Source of the DNA: an uncultured Pelagibacteraceae bacterium
Lineage (GTDB): Bacteria; Pseudomonadota; Alphaproteobacteria; Pelagibacterales; Pelagibacteraceae
Length of the DNA stretch: 64,000 bases
Assembly (NCBI GenBank): GCA_902592375.1
Contig: CACJEG010000003.1
Location: forward strand, 85,327-149,326
Reading direction: 5' to 3'
The position numbers and the translations under genes were made by a program. This document shows, one piece after another, positions 32,277 to 32,856 of this stretch. The stretch's first letter is position 1, and every line of letters starts with the position of its first letter. The notes under the pieces were generated by a model that ran no database searches, was not told the DNA's origin, and worked only from the letters and a program-made list of their open reading frames with translations.

Positions 32277-32304
32277 CTTGAAAAAAAAAAATTAATTCCC
32301 ATAT
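32277..32304 (+). promoter_or_regulatory. candidate sigma32-type promoter for hsp20
   Basis: CTTGAAA (32277) - 14 nt - CCCATAT (32298-32304). Confidence 0.65.
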
Positions 32305-32307
32305 AAG

Positions 32308-32369
32308 TTAGGTAAGTCGCCTAATGGGGCTTGCATAAATAAACTTGCTTAAAAAAGGAGGATATTATG
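32308..32369 (+). promoter_or_regulatory. candidate ROSE-like RNA thermometer in the hsp20 5' UTR
   Basis: UUAGG/CCUAA hairpin (32308-32324) plus CUUGCUU (32344-32350) pairing AAGGAGG SD (32355-32361) with one internal G-G mismatch. Confidence 0.6.
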
Positions 32370-32813
32370 ACAAGTAAGGATCTATCTATATTTAACTCAC
32401 TTAGACCTTTTTCAATTGGTTTTGATGATATGTTCGACCAATTCGAAAATATGTTAGGAAATGGAAATTTGACGATGCAGTCAAATTATCCACCATACAA
32501 CATCCGAAAGACAGGTAAAGACAACTATGCAATTGAAGTAGCATTGGCTGGCTTTAGCAAAAAAGACGTTGAGGTTGAGTTCGAGGACAATTTATTAACA
32601 GTTAGAACAAAACAAGTTAATAAGTCTGAGGACAGTGATGTAAATGGAGAAATTATTCATAAAGGGATTTCTCAAAGACAATTTGCAAGATCATTCACTA
32701 TAGCTGATGATGTAAAAGTTAATGGTGCTGAGCTTAAAGATGGTCTTTTAACAATATCTTGTGAAAGAATAATTCCAGAACATAAAAAAAAGAAGCTTAT
32801 TGAAATTAAATAA
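32367..32813 (+). CDS. Hsp20/alpha-crystallin small heat-shock protein (IbpA-like)
   Basis: FDQFENML, YPPYNIRKTGKDNYAIEVALAGF, alpha-crystallin domain. Confidence 0.95.
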   Translation: MTSKDLSIFNSLRPFSIGFDDMFDQFENMLGNGNLTMQSNYPPYNIRKTGKDNYAIEVALAGFSKKDVEVEFEDNLLTVRTKQVNKSEDSDVNGEIIHKGISQRQFARSFTIADDVKVNGAELKDGLLTISCERIIPEHKKKKLIEIK

Positions 32814-32826
32814 GTCTTAAACCTTG

Positions 32827-32856
32827 CTTGTGGGGATTTCTCCCCACAAGTTTAAA
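32827..32856. terminator. probable bidirectional terminator
   Basis: CTTGTGGGGA-TTTC-TCCCCACAAG 10-bp perfect stem between convergent hsp20 and permease genes. Confidence 0.8.

Follow-up and report, generated by a model that had tools for sequence, protein, structure and literature searches.

We propose that the 5' leader of hsp20 in this SAR11 bacterium is a short ROSE-like RNA thermometer lying behind a sigma32 promoter, a reading that sequence comparison makes very probable. The leader carries a sigma32-type promoter sequence and two conserved hairpins, and its fold sequesters the Shine-Dalgarno (SD) sequence. A promoter and ROSE-like element before hsp20 had been claimed in a first-pass annotation of the window (the whole stretch of 64,000 nucleotides that was analysed), and comparative tests of promoter spacing, of the two hairpins and of the specificity of a covariance model, R1, support this core claim. 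The features of the locus, in window coordinates, are as follows.

32277..32283, + strand: sigma32-type -35 element, CTTGAAA.
32298..32304, + strand: sigma32-type -10 element, CCCATAT, 14 nt after the -35 element.
32311..32312, + strand: probable start site of transcription, at the base of hairpin I.
32312..32334, + strand: hairpin I, with stem 32312-32318/32328-32334, bulged G32319, CC 32320-32321 paired to GG 32326-32327, and loop UAAU 32322-32325.
32344..32350, + strand: anti-SD CUUGCUU, the 5' arm of hairpin II, containing the ROSE motif U(U/C)GCU with bulged G32347.
32355..32361, + strand: SD sequence AAGGAGG, the 3' arm of hairpin II, sequestered in folds of the leader alone.
32367..32813, + strand: hsp20 (small heat-shock protein), with its ATG at 32367.
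32370..32381, + strand: codons 2-5 (ACA AGU AAG GAU), with near-frozen synonymous sites; AAGUAAG at 32372-32378 is complementary to the anti-SD.

The open reading frame directly downstream of the leader encodes a small heat-shock protein, and no second PF00011 gene was found in the 1.25 Mb genome of this member of the Pelagibacteraceae. The letters of the promoter that had been read as CTTGAAA-N14-CCCATAT are confirmed, and its spacing is kept in relatives. A TTGA-type -35 element is present in 154 of 163 distinct Pelagibacteraceae leaders; among these 154, the spacer to the -10 element is 14 nt in 133, and the distance from the end of the -10 element to hairpin I is 7 nt in 121, as it is in the window. 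Such a promoter is meaningful here because the genome encodes RpoH (TIGR02392 match, 364 bits, above the cut-off). The rigid distance between the -10 element and hairpin I points to a start site at the foot of the hairpin, which would give a leader of about 56 nt with hairpin I transcribed whole. Just 3' of hsp20, at 32827-32850, there is a strong hairpin (CUUGUGGGG-AUUUCU-CCCCACAAG), and GC-rich hairpins with other stem letters occupy the same place in relatives; it probably acts as a terminator, one that the convergent permease gene may share.

CUUGCUU, AAGGAGG and the ATG all stand where the first-pass annotation had placed them. Within the 64 kb, this anti-SD/SD/start pattern occurs once, compared with 0.43 occurrences expected in sequence simulated from a first-order Markov model. 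A single instance proves nothing alone, and because it is weak evidence we gathered homologous loci, the comparison of which carries the case. The 220 loci collected span nine genera of the family, the genus of the window among them, together with a second family of the order. Leaders were readable in 218 of them (177 distinct), with L159, which meets a contig end, and L083 left out, neither of which counts as an exception, and the anti-SD/SD/ATG arrangement is present in all 218.

Hairpin I was evaluated in 88 SAR11 leaders on a plain MAFFT alignment with no fitting to structure. Its pairs form in 97.3% of cells, compared with 31-58% in slid controls, and changes on both sides occur in 7 of the 9 pairs (62 cells); none of 500 shuffles reached either the observed paired percentage or the observed covariation score. 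In the window, the hairpin (GUAAGUC-G-CC-UAAU-GG-GGCUUGC) adopts the same fold when folded alone, and its apical sequence, G-Y-Y-GCC...GGG, is conserved among relatives. An alternative hairpin, UUAGG-N7-CCUAA, had been proposed for this part of the leader. Its letters are present, but its pairing is not conserved (46.5% of cells in the same 88 leaders, about the level of slid or shuffled controls), and we rejected it in favor of the hairpin at 32312-32334. The accompanying concern that the upstream hairpin might be only partly transcribed falls away with it, since the true hairpin I differs and would be wholly transcribed from the proposed start. Leaders of the second SAR11 family (L150-L166) have an additional hairpin, such as GCUGAUGGC...GCAUCAGC, upstream of hairpin I and about 60-85 nt before the start codon; these leaders may thus have three hairpins, like classical ROSE.

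For hairpin II, counts were made on a model-fitted alignment (A4), which leans towards structure, because the MAFFT alignment (A1) misaligned the anti-SD columns of the long-spacer and CCUUGCU types. The proposed pairing of the anti-SD with the SD stood, and the G-G mismatch drawn within it is one of two possible registers: a register with a bulged G (C32344-G32360, U32345-A32359, U32346-G32358, G32347 out, C32348-G32357, U32349-A32356 and U32350-A32355) pairs in 99.6% of cells, and the symmetric G-G register in 95.7%. Where CUCGCUU occurs with AAGGAGA, the C-G, U-A and C-G pairs form in the bulged register only. When a C precedes CUUGCU, all 35 leaders have an SD whose last base is G, compared with 98 of 124 when an A precedes it (Fisher p=0.0013, phylogeny not corrected), and a G opposite the extra 5' C is expected only with the bulged register. 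In the second family (f2), hairpin II is longer and has other letters (UUUAAUC-G-CUU with GAG-GAUUAAA), and it folds with the bulge. Against this comparative preference, nearest-neighbour energies calculated for the leader in the window favor the symmetric register. Judged by the fit to relatives, the bulged G appears to be the better drawing. As to the compensatory conservation on which the annotation had staked its case, hairpin I covaries clearly, and the anti-SD pairing is kept nearly everywhere with sparse compensatory change: two pairs have changes on both sides, and U-G becomes C-G in the CUCGCUU lineages. Compensatory change is sparse in this helix because the SD itself is constrained.

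A scan of 161 nt around the leader with 4227 Rfam families returned no family at its gathering score. ROSE_3 (RF02523) matched over its full length with 22.3 bits (E=0.0076; gathering cut-off 43 bits), and ROSE (RF00435) with 20.9 bits (E=0.25; gathering cut-off 45 bits). In this ROSE model search, which had been suggested for the leader, the GCC..auGGggC hairpin and the UUGCU anti-SD of RF00435 align end to end with the SAR11 leader. Across the 1.25 Mb genome, the best ROSE_3 site is the hsp20 leader (E=0.014; next site 0.75). RF00435 gave no match over 148 genomes of the order, nor in any control genome, which makes its silence in the order uninformative.

A further test came from R1, which was built from 21 Pelagibacter leaders only. 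In the genome, R1 finds the hsp20 leader with E=1e-15, and the next site has E=10. Among 289 alphaproteobacterial genomes, its five best matches outside the order (L230, L231, L232, L233 and L234) all lie directly before hsp20; the next by E-value are L235 (no clear gene), L236 (before rpoH), and L237 and L238 (both before hsp20), so that 7 of the 9 matches with E < 0.04 precede hsp20. Because the model contains nothing on hsp20, this association is an independent test. ROSE_3 also matches the leader at L231, though below threshold (28.6 bits, E=0.04). Two weak R1 matches lie before genes other than hsp20. One (E=0.02), at L236:1501-1562 (G646:C86:8458-8519, minus strand), is directly before an rpoH-like sigma factor gene and contains UAUUGCUUAUGAAAGAAGGAUAUAAUUAUG; ROSE-like control of rpoH itself is possible in this alphaproteobacterium. 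The other (E=0.48), at L246:1501-1554 (G640:C138:4355-4408, minus strand), is directly before dnaK and contains CUUGCUAACGAAUGAGGAUAUUAUG. Neither element was found in the two relatives compared in each case, and we did not retain these leaders as further ROSE cases.

Based on these observations, heat would act twice on hsp20, on transcription and on translation. RNA polymerase carrying RpoH would initiate at the foot of hairpin I, a structure established by covariation whose role may be that of a stable cap. In the cold, the U(U/C)GCU anti-SD, whose pairing is conserved, would hold the SD in the weak hairpin II with its one bulged G and so repress translation; on warming, hairpin II would open and 30S subunits bind, by analogy with experimentally probed ROSE elements. 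Free energies predicted for hairpin II in the genus are about -6.9, -4.7 and -3.0 kcal/mol at 10, 25 and 37 C, which makes a response at marine temperatures plausible. In folds of the leader alone, the predicted unpaired fraction of the SD rises from 0.12 at 4 C to 0.23 at 42 C. This shallow opening neither supports nor excludes function, as nearest-neighbour models are crude for such helices. It is nonetheless what would be expected if hairpin I guarded the 5' end, the weak SD hairpin set basal translation and all heat control came from sigma32, and stabilisation of mRNA by 5' hairpins is known (discussed in PMC3669281). We consider such constitutive damping or stabilisation improbable, given that the two families retain the exact ROSE motif and its bulged G, when a stronger helix could readily have evolved. 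Still more improbable, to the point that we give it little weight, is that hairpin I binds a protein or a ligand, as a riboswitch would, with SD pairing as its output. The conserved apical sequence would suit such a site, but the leader matches no Rfam riboswitch, the element is tied to hsp20 across the Alphaproteobacteria, and the hairpin is small and without pocket-like architecture. In Pseudomonas, thermoregulation is achieved by hairpin II alone (PMC3669281).

The start of the reading frame raises a rival of another kind, one that elaborates the thermometer and does not deny it. When two genera are compared, codons 2-5 are the same in 99.4% of cases, against a mean of 56% over 108 conserved degenerate codons, and they form the best four-codon run in hsp20. 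At codons 3 and 4, each of the 110 complete distinct sequences uses the same rare synonym (13% and 25% usage), which happens at no other codon of hsp20. Codons 2-5 are therefore likely to be constrained at the nucleotide level; a codon control on the neighbouring permease gene involved 36 strains too closely related to inform. When coding sequence is included in the folds, a competing fold often takes the anti-SD by pairing it with AAGUAAG, which weighs against the plain thermometer reading. These findings could be explained by a bistable switch, in which the anti-SD has two exclusive partners, the SD (off) or AAGUAAG of codons 2-4 (so that the SD and AUG lie in a loop), with the balance between the two shifted by temperature or by the ribosome. 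The seven contiguous pairs between the anti-SD and the coding sequence, one of them G-U, are consistent with this, as is the near-freezing of these codons across genera with its two fixed rare synonyms; in model ensembles for the genus of the window, the probabilities of the SD and coding partners shift from 0.45 and 0.16 at 5 C to 0.29 and 0.34 at 37 C. The probability of the coding pairing is 0.00-0.01 in the second genus despite the same codons, however, the complementarity is weak or absent in several other lineages, and the G-U wobble is never upgraded to G-C. We thus regard the switch as unlikely. Equally doubtful, in our estimation, is the broader proposition that the SAR11 element extends into the reading frame, with codons 2-4 held for RNA reasons as a second anti-SD partner, which would make it a two-state thermometer as opposed to a simple zipper.

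SAR11 are the most abundant bacteria of the ocean, with tiny genomes and few regulators, and their surface-ocean habitat is warming. An RNA thermometer on the single small heat-shock gene of these cells would represent a concrete and testable heat-sensing device, and the element is conserved in two families and occurs before hsp20 in other Alphaproteobacteria as well. As AT-rich members are missed by the current Rfam ROSE models, the class is probably under-counted. Thermometers, heat shock and hsp genes go unmentioned in the main text of a study of structured RNAs in Candidatus Pelagibacter ubique (PMC2704228). Stav et al. (2019, PMC6429828), whose analysis centred on the SAR11 strain HIMB5, reported "a possible RNA thermometer" for which the main text names no gene, and this was possibly an earlier notice of the same element. 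In the literature searched, the supplement of Stav et al. (2019) excepted, we found no ROSE element or RNA thermometer clearly tied to SAR11 hsp20.

The element shares with published ROSE elements its place in the leader of a heat-shock gene, mostly one for a small Hsp, at least one stable hairpin upstream (hairpin I), and a 3'-proximal hairpin that pairs U(U/C)GCU to the SD. The published motif has a predicted bulged G (PMC11342760; motif also in PMC3669281), and the comparative counts, though not the energy model in the window, likewise give an imperfect helix here in which a G is bulged out opposite the SD. ROSE-like elements on ABC transporter genes (PMC11342760) concern other genes, and their heat induction was assayed, whereas that of the SAR11 leader is a prediction. 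Classical ROSE (RF00435; rhizobia and Caulobacter) belongs to the same gene class and the same bacterial class, and its model aligns end to end, but it has three to four hairpins (PMC3669281), whereas two fit between the proposed start and the AUG in Pelagibacteraceae. The closest known system is the short ROSE-like thermometer of Pseudomonas ibpA (Krajewski et al. 2013, PMC3669281), in keeping with ROSE_3 as the best-scoring Rfam model. The SAR11 leader differs from it in being alphaproteobacterial, AT-rich and below the Rfam threshold, in the constraint on codons 2-5, and in a hairpin II that is weaker in the model (median -3.0 kcal/mol at 37 C, compared with -4.1 to -7.6 reported; PMC3669281). 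The two nevertheless have in common a leader of about 60 nt with two hairpins only, a stable hairpin I, a hairpin II in which U(U/C)GCU pairs with the SD, a sigma32 promoter and a small heat-shock gene (PMC3669281).
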